Positions 16,180 to 40,008 of a DNA stretch of 46,268 nt are shown here, one piece after another. The DNA comes from a virus, in IMG/VR virus record IMGVR_UViG_3300044821_000073, positions 1 to 46,268 of that record. The stretch is one strand, 5' to 3'. Each line of letters starts with the position of its first letter. Position 1 is the stretch's first letter. The notes under the pieces are model-generated. The model was not told where the DNA came from, did no database searches, and saw only the letters and a list, made by a program, of their open reading frames with translations. Made by a program: the position numbers and the translations under genes.

Positions 16180-16953
16180 CTACGCTCTAATGGCAGTTTT
16201 TTGCTTATTATGGCACTTCATCCACGTCTCTTTTAGCCCCTCCTGCGTCACGTGCGTGTAAACTTCCGTAGTCGCCAGATAAGCATGGCCCAACATCTCT
16301 TTAATCTCTAAAATATTTACTCCATTTCCTAACATTTTCGTCGCCATGGTATGTCTTAGCATGTGCGGCCACACCCTACCCATTCCATTCTTTTTCGATA
16401 ATCGTGTCAGGTGGTACTGCACCATCCTTATGGTCCACACCCTGCCAAATATCAACCCGGGTTTCAGTGTTTTCTTTGTCTCGTCTGAAATCATCACGCC
16501 GCGCTGTTTCTGTCCCTTACCGATAATCACAAAATAATTCGGCACTTCCCAATATTCCTGCCGGCTTACCCACTCCAGTTCCGCTACCCTTACCCCCGTG
16601 TCCAACATGAACCTAATTACCGGTTCAAATTCTTTACTGGCACCCTTTAGTAATGTCGCGACTTGTTCATCCTTCAGGAAATTTACCTGAGCCGGAGTGG
16701 TTTTCAACCGATCATAATAAAGTTTCTTATCAAACATCTTTTTATAAAACGACGCGATGGCTGTGATGTGTAAGTTCACGGTGTTGTTGCCAAGCCCCGC
16801 GCTTTTAAGGTGCGAGATATAATCGGTTGTCCACTTATTTCCTTCCGGAAAAGAACCTTCGTAGTGGTTATATAACCGACTAAGCACGTTTTTATAAATT
16901 TGCTTCGTCCTGTCGGACAACTGCATGCTAACAAACTGGTCTATGAGTTCCAT
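16180..16953 (-). CDS. int: Tyrosine recombinase (phage integrase)
   Basis: 257 residues with a SAM-like core-binding N-terminus (1-88) and a full catalytic domain: Arg122 (TGVRVAE), Lys146 (IGKGQKQR), His197-Leu-Arg200-His201 (PHMLRHT), His223 (LGHA) and the nucleophile Tyr232 (EVYTH). All six residues are in place, so it should be active in integration or in resolving dimers. It is short and XerC/D-like, with no long arm-binding domain. It has its own leftward promoter (16985-17014) and terminator, apart from the early leftward operon. Confidence 0.9.
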   Translation of the reverse strand: MELIDQFVSMQLSDRTKQIYKNVLSRLYNHYEGSFPEGNKWTTDYISHLKSAGLGNNTVNLHITAIASFYKKMFDKKLYYDRLKTTPAQVNFLKDEQVATLLKGASKEFEPVIRFMLDTGVRVAELEWVSRQEYWEVPNYFVIIGKGQKQRGVMISDETKKTLKPGLIFGRVWTIRMVQYHLTRLSKKNGMGRVWPHMLRHTMATKMLGNGVNILEIKEMLGHAYLATTEVYTHVTQEGLKETWMKCHNKQKTAIRA

Positions 16954-24078: not shown

Positions 24079-24585
24079 ATGCTTGGAGATATACAAATTT
24101 ACGACGAAGGCGCTTTTGGTTATCCCGGTGATGTTGAGTTCGTAGTTGCCTCTGGCACTACTGCGAACAAAATCAACGCCGGCGAACCGGTTGCGAAAGC
24201 ACTGGCTGGAGTAAACGTCACGGCACTCGCAACAAACGCTCCCGTTGTCGCGACGGATTTTCTTGCCGGCGTAGCCGCAAGTACTTCCACAGACACTGTG
24301 GCTGCTGCCGGTACCGTTAAGGTAACTAAATTAGTTCCTGGATTGTCTTGGCTGATTTCCCCGAAAGTTGCTGCAAGCTGGAATACACAATCAGCTTACG
24401 ATGCCTTAGTTGGTTCTCGTGTGCTTTTAGATTTGACTGGTACTGCCGCGGCTAAAACTGCGACTTATACCATTTTAGCCACCGATGGCGCTACTTCCGG
24501 TTGTGTTATTTTACCTTTGGATATTACAAAATATCCAGGTAAAGTTCGCTTTGCTTTCCGCAACGGCTGTAACTACTTAGCTTAA
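24079..24585 (+). CDS. Capsid decoration protein, paralogue 1
   Basis: 168 residues, mostly beta, starting MLGDIQIYDEGAFGYPGD and ending 'YPGKVRFAFRNGCNYLA'. Shares 'TSTDTVAAAGTV', 'TQSAYDALVGSRVLL' and both ends with the next gene. Size, beta content and place just before the major capsid gene suggest a head decoration or cement protein. No Shine-Dalgarno site; the leader ATTACCAAAATG is shared with paralogue 2. Confidence 0.65.
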   Translation: MLGDIQIYDEGAFGYPGDVEFVVASGTTANKINAGEPVAKALAGVNVTALATNAPVVATDFLAGVAASTSTDTVAAAGTVKVTKLVPGLSWLISPKVAASWNTQSAYDALVGSRVLLDLTGTAAAKTATYTILATDGATSGCVILPLDITKYPGKVRFAFRNGCNYLA

Positions 24586-24604: not shown

Positions 24605-25111
24605 ATGCTTGGAGATATACAAGTTTACGACTCAGGGGAATTTGGGTATCCAGGTGCTAGGCAATATAATGTTGCCTCTGGAGTCCTAGCCTCTATTAAG
24701 GCCGGTGAACCTGTACAGAAAGTTCTCGGCAGTCCTTACGTTGTCGCTATGACAACTAGCATGCCGATTACTGGTAGCGCAAGTTTAATGGTAGGAATTG
24801 CTGATACAACTTCTACTGATACAGTTGCCGCTGCTGGTACAGTTCAAGTGCTGAAGATGGTGCCTGGAGTATCTTATTTGATTGCTCCGGATACTGCTGC
24901 AACATGGGCGACACAGTCGGCTTATGACGCGTTAGTTGGTAGCAGGGTATTGCTGAAACTTACCGGCACTCTTGCCGCAGGTACACAGACTTATACCATG
25001 CTGGCTACTGATAGCGCTAATAACGGTTGTGTAGTTCTTCCATTGGATATTCAAAAGTATCCTACTAAAGTTAGGTTTGCCTTCCGCAATGCGGTAGACT
25101 ACTTAGCTTAA
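24605..25111 (+). CDS. Capsid decoration protein, paralogue 2
   Basis: 168 residues, same length as its neighbour and clearly homologous (MLGDIQVYDSGEFGYPGA start; 'YPTKVRFAFRNAVDYLA' end). The middle (residues about 20-75) has diverged most. A tandem duplication followed by divergence, perhaps for two sites on the capsid lattice. Same leader and no ribosome site. Confidence 0.65.
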   Translation: MLGDIQVYDSGEFGYPGARQYNVASGVLASIKAGEPVQKVLGSPYVVAMTTSMPITGSASLMVGIADTTSTDTVAAAGTVQVLKMVPGVSYLIAPDTAATWATQSAYDALVGSRVLLKLTGTLAAGTQTYTMLATDSANNGCVVLPLDIQKYPTKVRFAFRNAVDYLA

Positions 25112-25139: not shown

Positions 25140-27265
25140 ATGCTCACAGAAGCCCAAAATTTTGCGGTTAGATGAATGGCTGCAATAAGTTTGACCGACT
25201 GTAAACTTTGGTGTATACTATAAATAAGATAATTAATCTTAATTATATGTTCACCAATGAGTTCAGAGAAAAAGTTCTTTCACAATATGTTAATGGTAAG
25301 TCGCAAATGCAACTGCAAAAGGAATTTGGTGTTAGTAAGCCCACAATTCTTAAATGGATTAAGGCTGCTGGAATACAAGAGCATTACTTTAAGGCGAAAT
25401 ACTTGGATAAAGATATTGTTTTAAAACTATACGACCAAGGTTGGTCAGTTCTAAAAATAGCTGAAGAGCTAAATATAGGACGGCGACCACTTGAAAGTAT
25501 ATTAAAGCAAAATAATATTTTTAAAAGAGATAATAGCCAAGCTCTTTTACAAGGCAGATACGGTAAGGATGGTAATTTAACTAAAGGCCGTCCTAGAGAA
25601 TTACTCCAAAAAGAGTTTCCTGGGTTAGAACATGCTTTGCAGATGTGGAAAGCCGCAATTCTTACACTTGATAATTTTACTTGTCAGTTATGTGGTAAAA
25701 CAAGTGAAAGTTTAGAAGCGCATCACATTATTCCGTTGTATAAAATTTATCGTGAAAATTTAAAACGATTTTTATTGGTAGATTTGAAAAATGGAGTAGC
25801 AGTTTGTAATAAGCCTTGCCATAAAAATATTGCGATGAATGAACAAAAATTTGAACAACAGTTTAAAGAACTTGTCAATAATCGGGTTAATTCGGTGGAC
25901 ATCTCAGTGCAAAAGAAATTAAAGTCTTTGCTGAGATAATACCGAGCCAAGCAAAAGGTTAAAATCTTTTGAAGGCGTAACGACTAGAAGGTGAACCTCA
26001 AGTTGAGAACATAATCCTTCCACGAGTGCCCGACACTTCTTTATGAGGGGTGAAGAGATAGTCTGAACACTACGGTGACGTAGTGATGGAAAGGATAAAG
26101 AGCCTTTCCGATAACACAATGAGTTCAAACAGAATTGGACGACGTGAACTAAAATGCGTCGTAACGCGGCTAAACGGAGAATACCCTTAATGGACAACTC
26201 CGTGCTAAATCTTCCAGGAATGGAAGTAAATGCCTAACGACTAGAAGGTGATACGAGATCCGTTATAATCCTTCCAAGAAAACCGCGAACCTTAATGGTT
26301 AAGATATAGTCTGAACATCCGCTATAGATAAAACGGATGAGGTAAAGGATAAAGAGCCTTTACGATAACAACTTTGATTTTACCAAAAATTTGACTACGA
26401 CGCGACCACTCCTGGAATTGCGACTGCGCGAACTGCCGAGTTGTTTAGACCACTCGACACCACTCACGCCGCGTATATTCAGGAAGTGTTTAAAGGTTCG
26501 GGCCTTTTCCCGAAAATTGGGGAAACCCAAACTGTTCCTACTTCGACTCCTCATGTTGCGAATAAGCAGACCGTGCTTGTCTCTGACTTTGCCAACGGTA
26601 TCGAATTATCGAAAAACTTTTTCGATGATAATATGCACGGTGTTTGGAGCAAAGCTGTCGAAGACTTTGCTATGGTTGCTCGTGTCACCCAGGATGATAA
26701 TGCCTTCCGCATCTTCCGCGGTGGTTTTACCTCAACCTTGACCGCTGATGGTTCTTATTTCTTCTCTACCCACACCTTAATTGGTGGCGGTACTGTAGTA
26801 AATAATGCTACCGGCGCTCTTACTCCGGATAACCTGTATACCGGTATTGTTGCCTTGAGGCAACAGAAAAATCAGGCAGGAGTAGTCTTGGGCAATGCGC
26901 CTGCGATTCTCTTGGTTCCTTCCGCTTTGTTTAAGAAAGCTATCGAAATTACTCAGTCCGCTTTGCTGGCTGATTCTGCCGATAACAACTTAAACGTCTA
27001 CCGCGGCGTGTATGGCCTGAAGGTCATGACCTCTCCGTGGCTCGACGCGAACATTGGTTCCGGCACAACCGGTTCTGATACCGCTTGGTTCTTGCTTGCC
27101 AATAACCACTCTGTATCTCGCTTGATTAGACAGGGTATCCAGACCTCTTTGAGGGATTGGTCCTACTCTAATAACCGCACTTACTTCTACCAGGCTAATT
27201 TTAGGGAAGAAGTATTTGTGAGTGATTATTGTGGAGCGTATGGTTCCACCGGAACAACTGCCTAG
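25140..27265 (+). CDS. Major capsid protein, split by two group I introns
   Basis: Three exons: 25140-25168, 26122-26145 and 26377-27265, 942 nt in all, encoding 313 residues. The joined N-terminus reads MLTEAQNFAV-VQTELDDV-FYQKFDYDATTPGIATA. Unspliced, the first exon runs into TGA after 11 codons. The rest ('TTHAAYIQEVFKGSGLF', 'FDDNMHGVWSKAVEDF', 'RTYFYQANFREEVFVSDYC') looks like an HK97-fold phage capsid protein. It follows scaffold and decoration genes. Expression depends on removing both introns. Confidence 0.85.
25169..26121 (+). ncRNA. Group I intron 1 (953 nt, carries a homing endonuclease)
   Basis: The upstream exon ends GCGGT; GCTGC at 25179-25183 is the internal guide (P1, ending in U-G). 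The intron ends in G (26121). P7 is GACTA (25982-25986) with TAGTC (26059-26063), within the usual R and S context (AACGACTAGAAGG, AGATAGTCTGAACA). An HNH gene occupies 25247-25939. The 3' part is clearly related to intron 2. Confidence 0.85.
25247..25939 (+). CDS. Intron-encoded HNH homing endonuclease
   Basis: 230 residues from the ATG at 25247 (an upstream in-frame TTG at 25208 is less likely). The N-terminal 100 residues hold two HTH-like DNA-binding segments ('MQLQKEFGVSKPTILKWIKAAGI' and 'VLKIAEELNIGRRPLESILKQ'), followed by an HNH nuclease: CQLC, 'LEAHHIIPL', then 'NGVAVCNKPCH'. It should cut intron-less capsid genes to spread the intron. AT-rich compared with the capsid exons. Confidence 0.85.
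   Translation: MFTNEFREKVLSQYVNGKSQMQLQKEFGVSKPTILKWIKAAGIQEHYFKAKYLDKDIVLKLYDQGWSVLKIAEELNIGRRPLESILKQNNIFKRDNSQALLQGRYGKDGNLTKGRPRELLQKEFPGLEHALQMWKAAILTLDNFTCQLCGKTSESLEAHHIIPLYKIYRENLKRFLLVDLKNGVAVCNKPCHKNIAMNEQKFEQQFKELVNNRVNSVDISVQKKLKSLLR
26146..26376 (+). ncRNA. Group I intron 2 (231 nt, no gene)
   Basis: The upstream exon ends GACGT; GCGTC at 26156-26160 is the internal guide (perfect P1 with terminal U-G). It ends in G (26376). P7 is GACTA (26239-26243) with TAGTC (26307-26311), preceded by the canonical AAGATA. Compact but apparently complete. Confidence 0.85.
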
Positions 27266-28133: not shown

Positions 28134-29333
28134 ATGGCTTATAACGTAACAGCATTAAAATCTGAGATGCAGGCTTTCATACATGGGACTACGCTTAACA
28201 GCGTTATTGCCGTGGATCAGCTTATTTACCGTGCCGCGCGCCAGCTTCTTCTTGACGTTGACCCACAGGAAATGAAACGGAGCGTTCCTTTAGCCTCGGC
28301 TATTTACGACCGGGTTTATGACTACCCGATTCCCAGTGATGTTAAGGGAATTAAGGTTATAGATATTCGTCCTCAGGCAGACCGTAATTGGAGTGATTCG
28401 TTCTTACAGACTTATAGTAAGCCGTTTGACCTTTCTAAGGATTCCCTGGCTAACCAGTTTAATATTGACTTTAATACCGGTGTAAAAACCATTCGCATAG
28501 CCGACTCTGGACTTGTCCCCGGCGTGGTGGTTAATAGTGCTGACTCAGTTTCTTCTAACGGGACATGGGCGGCTGCCGGCACCGCCTATAACTTAACCGT
28601 GGATAATATTAATTATGTTTCCGGTAGTTCTTCCTTGAAATTTGATGCAACTACCGGCGCGGCTTATTTAGAAAACTCTACGATGAACGCGCAGAATCTT
28701 TCAGAGTGGAAAAACCAAGGGCACTTTTTCCTGTGGGTTTATATGCCGACTGCTTCGGAGTTTACGAATGTTAAACTGCGCTGGGGTTCTTCTTCCACCG
28801 CTTATTACGAACAGACTGTAACGGTAAACCAACAGGGTAATACTTTTGTTGATGGCTGGAACCTGTTGGATTTTCCATGGCTTGGCGCTGTTCAGACTTT
28901 AACTCCTACTGACACCGCGATTAATTACCTTCGGGTAACTTGTAATGTAACTGCTTTTCAGACCGCGATTCGCTTGGATAATATTGTTTTTCGCTTAGGC
29001 ACAATTTTAAATATTCTTTACTATTCTAAATACTTGTTTAGAGACGCGATAACCGGCGGCTGGCAGGAAACGATTACCGATGATAGCAACATTATAAACC
29101 TCGATACTGAAAGTTATAACCTACTGGTCTACCAGGTTGGTATTCACCTGGCTCAACAGCTCCAAGGTCTTGATGCTATGTTCTATGACGGGAATTATTT
29201 CCAGCAGCACTACGGGGACGCTCTGAATAGTTATAGATTGCAAAACCGTAGCGAGTGGCAGAAACCTACAAATATTTATTATGGTATGACTCGTCCTGGT
29301 TATTCTAAATATATGACAAGGAGAAACTGGTAA
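28134..29333 (+). CDS. Head-tail connector (adaptor) candidate with carbohydrate-binding-like insert
   Basis: 399 residues. Residues 1-110 and 300-399 are helical with the pattern of podovirus adaptor proteins ('IYRAARQLLLDVDPQEMKRS', 'LLVYQVGIHLAQQLQGLDAM'). Between them is a jelly-roll-like insert (about 130-290, 'WKNQGHFFLWVYMP...LRWGSSSTAYYEQTV') resembling a carbohydrate-binding module. It lies between the head genes and the nozzle-like gene, as T7 gp11 does. Its stop overlaps the next start (TAATG). Confidence 0.55.
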   Translation: MAYNVTALKSEMQAFIHGTTLNSVIAVDQLIYRAARQLLLDVDPQEMKRSVPLASAIYDRVYDYPIPSDVKGIKVIDIRPQADRNWSDSFLQTYSKPFDLSKDSLANQFNIDFNTGVKTIRIADSGLVPGVVVNSADSVSSNGTWAAAGTAYNLTVDNINYVSGSSSLKFDATTGAAYLENSTMNAQNLSEWKNQGHFFLWVYMPTASEFTNVKLRWGSSSTAYYEQTVTVNQQGNTFVDGWNLLDFPWLGAVQTLTPTDTAINYLRVTCNVTAFQTAIRLDNIVFRLGTILNILYYSKYLFRDAITGGWQETITDDSNIINLDTESYNLLVYQVGIHLAQQLQGLDAMFYDGNYFQQHYGDALNSYRLQNRSEWQKPTNIYYGMTRPGYSKYMTRRNW

Positions 29334-29839
29334 TGGCTCACCCACCTAAAGATATAGCAGGAGAAAAATTTCATCGTCTAACGGCGATTAAATTTGAGTA
29401 TAGAAAAAATGGTAATGACTATTGGTCTGCTTTTTGTGAGTGTGGTAATAAAGTAGTTTGTAGGAAGGGAAATATTACCGCTCCTTCTACTAAGACTAAA
29501 AGTTGTGGATGTTTGAATCATGAGAATACAGTTTTAAAAGGTAAGAATTTTAAAACTCATGGGATGAGTACAACTAAATTTTATTATGTTTGGAATGGAA
29601 TGAAACGTCGTTGTGAGAATCCTAAAACAGAAAAATATAAATATTATGGGGCTAAAGGAATTAAAGTAGAATGGAAAACTTTTGAAGAGTTCCGTGATGA
29701 TATGTACCAAGGTTATGTAGAACATTTAGAGGAATACGGAAAAGATACTTCTATTGATAGAATTGATACCTATGGGAATTATTGTAAATTAAATTGTCGC
29801 TGGGCAACAGCTAAAGAACAAGCTAATAATAAAAGATAA
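29333..29839 (+). CDS. Free-standing homing endonuclease
   Basis: 168 residues: an N-terminal zinc-finger-like part ('FCECGNKVVCRKGNI', 'SCGCLNHE'), then a nuclease-like end, 'TSIDRIDTYGNYCKLNCRWATAKEQANNKR'. This ending is a hallmark of a large family of phage HNH/Vsr-like homing endonucleases. The gene fits exactly between two TAATG junctions, so it was inserted between the connector and nozzle genes without breaking either. Markedly AT-rich. Confidence 0.75.
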   Translation: MAHPPKDIAGEKFHRLTAIKFEYRKNGNDYWSAFCECGNKVVCRKGNITAPSTKTKSCGCLNHENTVLKGKNFKTHGMSTTKFYYVWNGMKRRCENPKTEKYKYYGAKGIKVEWKTFEEFRDDMYQGYVEHLEEYGKDTSIDRIDTYGNYCKLNCRWATAKEQANNKR

Positions 29840-31725: not shown

Positions 31726-32397
31726 ATGACTGAAGAAAAAAGATTAAAACGTAATGCTTATATGAGAAAGTGGATGAAAGACCATCCTGTTGCTGTGGCT
31801 GCTCGTAAAAGAAGATGGATATTACAAAATATAGAACATGTTAAAGCACAAGGTAAGGCTAGATACGAACGGATGAAAAAAGAAAATCCTGAACATTTAA
31901 AGGCAATGATGAAGAAGGCACAAGCTAAACGTAATCTTAAAAGACCTTGGTTAAATGCAAATTTAACAGAAGAACAGAGACAGAGCAAAATAAATAATTC
32001 TAGAAAATGGAGGTTAAGTCATCCTGGGTTGTCTGCGCAAAGGAGTAGAGAATATAAAGCTAGACATGTGGAAAGAGTAAGGGCTAATCGTAGAAAATGG
32101 GCAAAGGAAAATCCTTTAAAGAATAAAATTTCTCATTTAAATAATCAGGCAAAACGAAGGCAGGCTGAAGGGTCGTTTACATGCGAAGAGTGGGAAACTA
32201 AGAAGAAAGAATATAATTATTTTTGTTCTGCTTGTGGAAAACAAGAACCGGAAATTAAGTTATCTGTTGACCATATACAGCCTTTATCAAGAGGTGGAAC
32301 AAACTATATAGATAATATTCAACCACTCTGTATGCCTTGTAACTCTAGAAAAAATGCCAAGACTATCAAATATGAAATTATAGCATTAACTTTATAA
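31726..32397 (+). CDS. Free-standing HNH homing endonuclease
   Basis: 223 residues. The first 140 are Lys/Arg-rich repeats ('RKWMKDHPVAVAARKRRW', 'RKWRLSHPG', 'RKWAKENP') typical of repeated DNA-contacting modules. Then comes a classic HNH: 'YFCSACG', 'LSVDHIQPLSRGGTNYIDNIQPLCMPCNSRK'. Inserted between nozzle and fibre genes. AT-rich. Confidence 0.85.
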   Translation: MTEEKRLKRNAYMRKWMKDHPVAVAARKRRWILQNIEHVKAQGKARYERMKKENPEHLKAMMKKAQAKRNLKRPWLNANLTEEQRQSKINNSRKWRLSHPGLSAQRSREYKARHVERVRANRRKWAKENPLKNKISHLNNQAKRRQAEGSFTCEEWETKKKEYNYFCSACGKQEPEIKLSVDHIQPLSRGGTNYIDNIQPLCMPCNSRKNAKTIKYEIIALTL

Positions 32398-38800: not shown

Positions 38801-39394
38801 CCTGTTTCCAGACAAGCGGATCCAAATCAGGGATTTATTGTTAAGCAAATGCAGTCTGTTATGATGCAGATTCCCGGATTATCTCAGAAAGTTCCGGCTC
38901 AGTTAAATTCTCAAGGACAACCTATTAAAAAGCAAAATTCTTTATTGAATAATTTTTCACCTGCTCCGATTACTTCTGTTGACCAGCCAAAAGAAAAAGC
39001 TTATCAGGAACAGCAAAAATTAGGAGTTATTAATAGCCAAGTCAGTAAAGAAAGCGCTGCTAATTCTGCAAAAGCTCAACAGCTTTATAGTAAGATTTTG
39101 CCAATGACTCCACAGCAACGCGCGGCATATCTTAAAGCTAATAAACCTTCTGCTAAAGTGATGACAGAACTTACTAAACAGATTCAGACTCATGTAAATA
39201 AGTTAGATAGTTTTCAGCAAGCCTTTAATAACGCTCCGGCAGAGACAAGAGGAAAATATTTATATCAGTCTATGAAAGGAATGACGACTCGGGAACGTGC
39301 TGAATTATTCCAATATCTGCAAAAAGGTGGGTCTATTACTCCACAAGTATTACAGGATTTAGGACAGGAAATTTCAGTAAATGGTAAACCTTAA
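35822..39394 (+). CDS. Large internal virion/ejection protein
   Basis: 1190 residues from the ATG just after the previous stop; the frame upstream only shadows that gene. It has a low-complexity N-terminus (1-140) and helical middle. The C-terminal half includes 'PSTLLNKIETFFKTLAKGGEEAAMKTRLAEGG' (about 716) and 'SGRQPWSVRIGNKWVSYQRLPVALAFNLAF' (about 880-910), typical of the large polyvalent proteins of podoviruses. Hydrophobic stretches near 260-300, 345-365 and 835-855 may help cross the host membrane. It is probably ejected with the DNA. Confidence 0.65.
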   Translation: MAGLYDTMKVQQTATIPVVQAQPNQIISGVVSAKPNATIVPPKFVGPVKTPVATSMPAVQKPQASSLQPATGLYVSPKQNDIASILQPSSNPQTPSTGGLYQQMKTQQASLPVTGVNGTPTPRPVPTMGQVNGQTVAGTTLTSDPARLAQRGSLDVKPEITPAQGEANRIDFISQSSTGDLLKKQYGDNPVTKAAAFLFTPLDPLTRDISDIKEANDIKDQVASGKIDQSVYDGLDVLHKSGLQIVGDVAQAVITADTLGLASGAVIDSATGQVLKRSLSELAVEGAKQGGFAGAQFGVATALSSGSTDPDTITKIITENIVGGALIGTVLHTALPALVKVVAATNEIKNQAIQSLVDKGYTPEEARNLVLQGGYIGGIPEKGSTNINELSTPETTPESTTKEEAVQPQILSPLEQKAASSYGDSIIPDSKFYNVDRLNTTPEGKAVVNEALDQAGAKIQETVGKTLTHAEVIKRAQQTSVILNDTIGRDQTADMEAATLNLRNKIVDISNGGKVTPELIDLINKDKAMGANIARQLEARKINANPGQLTNLQIVLNALKEKGKLTDDILKQASDEKVDFNDPKQATDFFRKVSPTKISDWIDLLRYNSMLSSPKTSIIKMTADIGSSGTVRPLTLAIQGLQDAAKAALTGSEREHFVGESGSYIKGYFSSLKEAWNNITSDVNTLKDTAIDPDTAKMPLATSKGGKAVEAFLKAPSTLLNKIETFFKTLAKGGEEAAMKTRLAEGGKQNEMFATPEDEVNANVQKSFFRGGHDPREGYVLQTIQGMSDAIGTMRNSKNPVLSTIAKWTFPFLNIGTQLTKGGIEYSPLGITTLWGAENKAEQLAKFTIGLGATTLAAGLVGSDKITGPTPTSPTLKAAFQDSGRQPWSVRIGNKWVSYQRLPVALAFNLAFVAAVKQAVDDERLTGNKDQAIAQAFATSAQFVTEASYFRNLGEFVDATKGNVSGFTNFLANYPQQLIPLRALMSWTNNIIDPVSRQADPNQGFIVKQMQSVMMQIPGLSQKVPAQLNSQGQPIKKQNSLLNNFSPAPITSVDQPKEKAYQEQQKLGVINSQVSKESAANSAKAQQLYSKILPMTPQQRAAYLKANKPSAKVMTELTKQIQTHVNKLDSFQQAFNNAPAETRGKYLYQSMKGMTTRERAELFQYLQKGGSITPQVLQDLGQEISVNGKP

Positions 39395-40008
39395 TTAATT
39401 ATGTTTAATCTTGCAAACTCTCCATAGTATTTAAGTGCTGCTTGGTTGTAGGCAACGGCGGCTTTCCTTTGGCTTTTAAATGAACCTAAAAACTTACTCT
39501 GTTCTTTGCTAATTTTTATATCTGCTCTCCATGAATTTAATAACTTATTCCAAGATACACCTTTGAAAAGAGAGCTTCCCCGTTTAGATTTTCTTTGATT
39601 CCAGGCATTTTGTTGTTTGTCACAAATTCTTAAATTTGAACTTCTGTTGTCTAGTATATCTCCAGATTTGTGATCCGTATATAGATTTTTTGGGCAATTC
39701 GTAATCATTCTATGTAAAAAAGACAACCTTTTATTAATACGAGTACAGACATATCCTGAACTGAGAGACCATTTATGCTTTTTAACTAGAAGTAAAAATT
39801 TCTTATCAAATTTTGAATAAGCAATTATTTCACTTAGCCTATTATATACCACCAATTCTAAATAATTTCCTTTATCGATAATTTGGTTTGGAGTGGATCT
39901 AGTTCTAGATAGAATTTTCCCGCGCCGATACATTTGCGCTCTGTGCTTACCACAATATTCTTTGCCAACATGTTTTCCTCCACACCCTTTAACAATACAT
40001 TTCTTCAT
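39391..40008 (-). CDS. Free-standing HNH/AP2-domain homing endonuclease
   Basis: 205 residues, the only leftward gene of the late region. N-terminal Cys/His knuckle ('CIVKGCGGKHVGKEYCGKH'), an HNH_3 nuclease ('FLHRMITNCPKNLYTDHKSGDILDNRSSNLRICD', with 'NAWN' after) and a C-terminal AP2 DNA-binding domain ('FKGVSWNKLLNSWRADI...FLGSFKSQRKAAVAYNQAA'). Its stop overlaps the end of the ejection protein gene by 4 nt. Invading selfish gene. Confidence 0.85.
   Translation of the reverse strand: MKKCIVKGCGGKHVGKEYCGKHRAQMYRRGKILSRTRSTPNQIIDKGNYLELVVYNRLSEIIAYSKFDKKFLLLVKKHKWSLSSGYVCTRINKRLSFLHRMITNCPKNLYTDHKSGDILDNRSSNLRICDKQQNAWNQRKSKRGSSLFKGVSWNKLLNSWRADIKISKEQSKFLGSFKSQRKAAVAYNQAALKYYGEFARLNIIN

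Follow-up and report, generated by a model that had tools for sequence, protein, structure and literature searches.

How can a major capsid gene be interrupted twice within a few codons, and can the 24-nt exon left between the two insertions serve both of them? The question arises at positions 25140-27265, on the plus strand, of IMGVR_UViG_3300044821_000073, a viral record of IMG/VR that was analysed over its full 46,268 nt (hereafter, the window). We conclude with high confidence that the best overall explanation is a phage major capsid gene in which two separate group I introns of a subgroup-IA-like type lie 24 nt from each other.

The joined capsid protein

Unspliced, the capsid frame meets a stop after 11 codons, and the longest single ORF at the locus covers 274 of the 313 residues of the protein, without its true N-terminus. 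The initial annotation had claimed that the coding sequence becomes continuous once 25169-26121 and 26146-26376 are removed, and this is what we find: the exons then read as one open frame, 313 aa long, and the junctions are precisely those it gave (MLTEAQNFAV-VQTELDDV-FYQKFDYD). Exon 1 (25140-25168, 29 nt, ending in GCGGU) is delimited by the joined ORF and by alignment to homologues. The middle exon (26122-26145, 24 nt) encodes VQTELDDV with a split codon at each end, a segment that is uninterrupted in intron-less homologues, and exon 3 (26377-27265) includes the stop codon. Against Pfam, the joined product matches Mu-like_gpT (9.5e-15); against PHROG, it matches 371, major head protein (2.1e-16). 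Closely spaced self-splicing introns in phage genes are easily overlooked by annotation.

In a scan of viral contigs, the intron-less homologues L001 (72% identical) and L002 (62%) were found to have an unbroken N-terminus, for example MFTEAQNFAIVQTELDSVFYQNFDYD, and the joined protein is collinear with such homologues. Homologues lacking VQTELDDV had been named beforehand as an observation that would speak against the middle exon; as the intron-less homologues carry the segment, this objection falls away. When the scans were widened, a first set of 42 contigs and a second of 27 more at 40% identity or higher were obtained, about 70 related capsid contigs in total. Most of the 42 contigs of the first set start in frame and run unbroken across both intron sites, and within VQTELDDV, residues T13, L15 and D16 are nearly invariant among homologues. 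A degenerate DNA pattern for contiguous exon-2 alleles had nine matches, one of them being the contig of L031. As for named phages, the sole matches in the near-relative search were distant Mu-like heads, at less than 32% identity.

Two predicted group I introns

Intron 1 (25169-26121, 953 nt) and intron 2 (26146-26376, 231 nt, no ORF) both end in G, as initially read, and the terminal G stands at junctions fixed by homologues. A search with the Rfam group I model RF00028, which the initial annotation had advised, matches both: intron 1 at 25813-26085 with 62.8 bits, above the curated cut-off, and intron 2 at 26116-26333 with 34-35 bits (E 1e-6 to 6e-9), below it, the cut-off of 50 bits being a scoring threshold and not a structural feature.

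The cores, located by alignment and pair counts (P3-P8 and P7, at 25874-26069 in intron 1 and 26156-26317 in intron 2), were compared among 12 introns of this capsid family, and P3-P8, P7, P7.1 and P7.2 were scored. Overall, 95.9% of the cells are paired, compensatory changes affecting both sides are present in 26 of the 39 core pairs, and none of 500 shuffles matched the real core on any of five measures; when the partners are slid, pairing falls to 29-45%. The P7 helix GACUA/UAGUC, reported earlier for the two window introns, is found in both and in all 12 of the set (the pseudoknot with the guanosine-binding site). It shows no covariation because it is invariant. P7.1 is 94.8% paired, with four covarying pairs, and P7.2 is 77.8% paired; the position of these elements between P7 and the 3' strand of P3 points to a subgroup-IA-like class. 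Subgroup IA introns, of the T4 td, SPO1 and Twort type, have P7.1/P7.2 inserted between P7 and P3 and encode endonucleases. The evidence shows that both introns belong to group I, and their splicing would depend on guanosine. Each would fold its own core, use its own guide to pair with the last bases of the 5' exon (P1, with a terminal U.G), and be removed with external guanosine, to give one capsid mRNA that retains the 24-nt exon.

Intron 1 contains an ORF of 230 aa (25247-25939, ATG at 25247) of the HTH-HNH endonuclease type, with matches to Pfam HTH_28 and HNH and to PHROG HNH endonuclease (2.7e-16); the Pfam HNH score, 19.6 bits, is under its cut-off of 21.4, and we call the product a putative nuclease. 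The ORF runs to 25939 and overlaps P3, P4 and P5, so that the C-terminus of the endonuclease is written in the ribozyme core, an overlap also found in the intron of L061. Given its ORF, intron 1 is presumably the mobile one, and intron 2 probably travels with it via co-conversion of flanking DNA.

Intron hot spots in related capsid genes

Introns were found in 11 capsid lineages (13 of the roughly 70 contigs), at 11 sites. Numbered on the window capsid gene, the N-terminal sites are nt 21 (L031), 29 (window intron 1), 32 (L048), 43 (L239), 44 (L061 and L062) and 53 (window intron 2), and those of the stretch encoding FDDNMHG are nt 278 (L003), 303 (L003, L057 and L062), 306 (L013 and L055), 311 (L012) and 315 (L057). 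All 11 are confined to nt 21-53 and 278-315, neither stretch exceeding 38 nt, and not one of 300,000 random draws was equally clustered. The endonucleases divide in the same manner: the HTH/HNH type occurs only at the N-terminus and the Endonuclease_7 type only at the FDDNMHG motif, and blast between the two sets returned no matches. A covariance model built from the capsid introns had 15 matches in 909 kb around capsid genes, all 15 inside them, 12 of these being the introns that trained the model. The whole-record Rfam search missed introns detected by direct scan, such as that of L031 (78 bits), and its negatives were therefore left unused.

As each hot spot has its own endonuclease family, the places where introns accumulate seem to be set by nuclease targeting and not by the RNA. 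Related endonuclease families would repeatedly target the same short conserved DNA, and introns would settle at slightly shifted positions. We propose that the pair in the window arose because two stretches of the capsid gene are such hot spots.

Tandem introns are present in three lineages, with intervening exons of 24 nt (the window), 25 nt (AGAATTGAGTAAAGATTTGTTCGAT, in L003) and 12 nt (GACAATATGCAT, in L057), the boundaries in L003 and L057 being fixed by the homologous protein; the junctions of L003 exon 3 and of L012 were assigned by reading, not by the marker-based rebuild. In the 12-nt exon every base is engaged: P10 of the first intron occupies bases 1-6 and overlaps P1 of the second, which occupies bases 5-12. 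With exons this short (24, 25 and 12 nt, and 5-10 nt in an unrelated phage described below), the pairing elements of neighbouring introns are forced to share few bases. The value of the finding lies in this recurrence across relatives and in the hot spot pattern, and the related loci make it possible to test what the minimum exon length between two ribozymes is.

A stronger reading, which we regard as possible and advance only tentatively, is that the capsid gene is a contested landing site for two endonuclease families, each holding one conserved stretch, with micro-exons as a by-product. Each stretch would be about as long as one recognition site, and each new intron would disrupt the target of its rivals; the guide elements would be crowded, and an order of splicing would therefore be imposed.

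Two further observations concern introns of related type. At L062:5550-5815, and at the matching place in L066, lies an N-terminal capsid intron whose 3' junction, set by homology, follows A instead of the usual G. Close intron relatives with Endonuclease_7-like ORFs are found at L067:4599-4761 and L068:2893-3055 (minus strand), beside apparent capsid genes that belong to an unrelated family of phages.

Pairings around the 24-nt exon

The guide pairings initially proposed (GCGGU with GCUGC, GACGU with GCGUC) are borne out, and they are longer than described. P1 of intron 1 (25162-25185) pairs UUGCGGU (25162-25168) with GCUGCAA (25179-25185), at -8.1 kcal/mol, and P1 of intron 2 (26139-26162) pairs ACGACGU (26139-26145) with GCGUCGU (26156-26162), at -10.1 kcal/mol. 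Both are predicted helices of 7 bp with a terminal U.G at the 5' splice site, and runs of this length would arise in a random 28-nt segment with probabilities of 0.024 (intron 1) and 0.0016 (intron 2). P10 has 5 bp in intron 1 and 6 bp in intron 2, short pairings with chance values of 0.07 and 0.02.

The initial annotation had asked whether both P1 helices could form without interference across so small an exon. Here the worry is largely answered. P10 of intron 1 lies on nt 2-6 of exon 2 and P1 of intron 2 on nt 18-24, with 11 free bases between them, so that both can form. The crossed pairings are weak, -4.0 kcal/mol for exon 1 with guide 2 and +0.4 kcal/mol for exon 2 with guide 1, against the cognate values given above. 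One further pairing may bear on the order of events: intron 2 begins with GAACU, which can pair with AGUUC, the opening five bases of exon 2, at -5.4 kcal/mol versus -3.0 kcal/mol for the P10 guide of intron 1 (chance about 0.01 for a random 10-mer, several such pairings having been inspected). If it is real, intron 2 would have to leave first, since this pairing is the stronger.

The same energies bear on exon skipping, in which the 5' site of intron 1 and the 3' site of intron 2 would often be joined directly, giving an isoform shorter by eight residues. Because the exon is 24 nt long and both introns are in codon phase 2, skipping would keep the frame, and PMC10136302 reports such events for Twort orf142, with its 23-nt exon, as does PMC11878797 for phage SIOphi. 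We nevertheless consider frequent skipping unlikely in the window: exon 1 pairs far better with its own guide than with guide 2, the segment that would be lost holds the nearly invariant T13, L15 and D16, and the two introns are of different lineages whereas those of the Twort pair are highly similar.

Could one of the introns, most likely intron 2, have decayed to the point of no longer self-splicing, leaving a gene that fails or depends on host aid? Its sub-threshold Rfam score and its long branch (see below) would fit. The core helices of intron 2 nevertheless pair, with compensatory changes in P3 and P4, and it has a 7-bp P1 with U.G, a 6-bp P10 and a final G; moreover, the reading frame is intact in the exons that flank it, and a phage can hardly do without its major capsid gene. 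We regard decay as very improbable, and retain the reading of two introns that would each splice.

Origin of the two introns

The two introns belong to distinct lineages. Intron 1 is closest to the intron of L061 (79%), at the same hot spot, and intron 2, in a tree of 12 introns, to L003B (68%), at the other hot spot; the AU test rejects a topology that makes the two window introns sisters (p = 5.5e-5). That intron 2 would be a duplicate of intron 1 inserted 24 nt away is scarcely credible, because what the two share, in P7 and in their 3'-terminal stretch (blastn E 4e-9), is common to a wider intron group; the nearest relatives also differ, and the sister constraint fails.

Intron 2 sits on a long branch. 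Its origin from the second hot spot of the same gene was favoured with 12 introns; in a tree of 92 introns, where deep support is weak, it also groups with introns of other phages, and the second hot spot is no more than one possible source.

A capsid gene with 12 introns

A more extreme case than the window was met in L178, part of an unrelated 279-kb contig of a huge phage (IMGVR_UViG_3300044846_005229); the capsid region occupies L178:1-5800 on the minus strand. Over its C-terminal part, the capsid shares 59% identity with that of Synechococcus phage S-CBWM1, and its gene is split by 12 group I introns, with 11 matches over the Rfam cut-off. The 13 rebuilt exons measure 9, 27, 5, 52, 72, 10, 38, 81, 8, 37, 53, 539 and at least 31 nt. 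Once joined, they encode a protein that can be aligned with the S-CBWM1 capsid across the junctions, apart from one extra stretch of six residues at exons 5-6, the boundaries of which are less certain; the fourth intron has a 3' junction that is not preceded by G. A second copy, L181, from another sample, is 94-96% identical over much of the region. Runs of close group I intron matches are also seen in the viral contigs L180, L110, L094, L099, L166, L167, L152, L125 and L131.

Other genes in the window

Directly upstream of the capsid gene lie two tandem, similar 168-aa proteins of no known family (24079-24585 and 24605-25111), possibly duplicated decoration-type proteins. The structural region also holds three stand-alone endonuclease-like genes, at 29333-29839, 31726-32397 and 39391-40008 (minus strand); in Pfam, the second has an HNH match over cut-off, the third a weak AP2/HNH match and the first no match, and the intron covariance model detected no intron near the three. 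A tyrosine-type integrase is encoded at 16180-16953 on the minus strand (Phage_integrase 8.5e-20), so that the phage may be temperate.

Comparison with known systems

The initial annotation was right in describing two group I introns around a 24-nt exon in a major capsid gene; to call the arrangement rare, as it did, is too strong in view of Twort, of crAss-like phages and of the micro-exons of the relatives. The window introns share with subgroup IA the P7.1/P7.2 insertion and an intron-encoded endonuclease, and differ in that the endonuclease frame of intron 1 crosses P3, P4 and P5 of its own ribozyme.

The capsid arrangement has precedents. In the Zeta-group crAss-like phages, the major capsid gene is also split by several group I introns, but the gene there consists of five ORF fragments, in another phage group, and the available part of the source describes no micro-exon (PMC7886860). 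In phiNIT1, a small exon between two group I introns was recognised via cDNA reads in a ribonucleotide reductase gene, that is, a metabolic gene and not a capsid gene (PMC11878797). The experimental precedent is Staphylococcus phage Twort orf142, in which group I introns 2 and 3 flank a 23-nt exon (Landthaler and Shub 1999, as described in PMC10136302); the product was later identified as tail tube (PMC11878797). In both phages, two group I introns split a structural gene around an exon of nearly the same length, 23 nt in Twort and 24 nt here. The window gene encodes a capsid protein, however, and its introns are of separate lineages where those of Twort are highly similar; and exon skipping is reported for Twort, while the duplex energies of the window argue against it.
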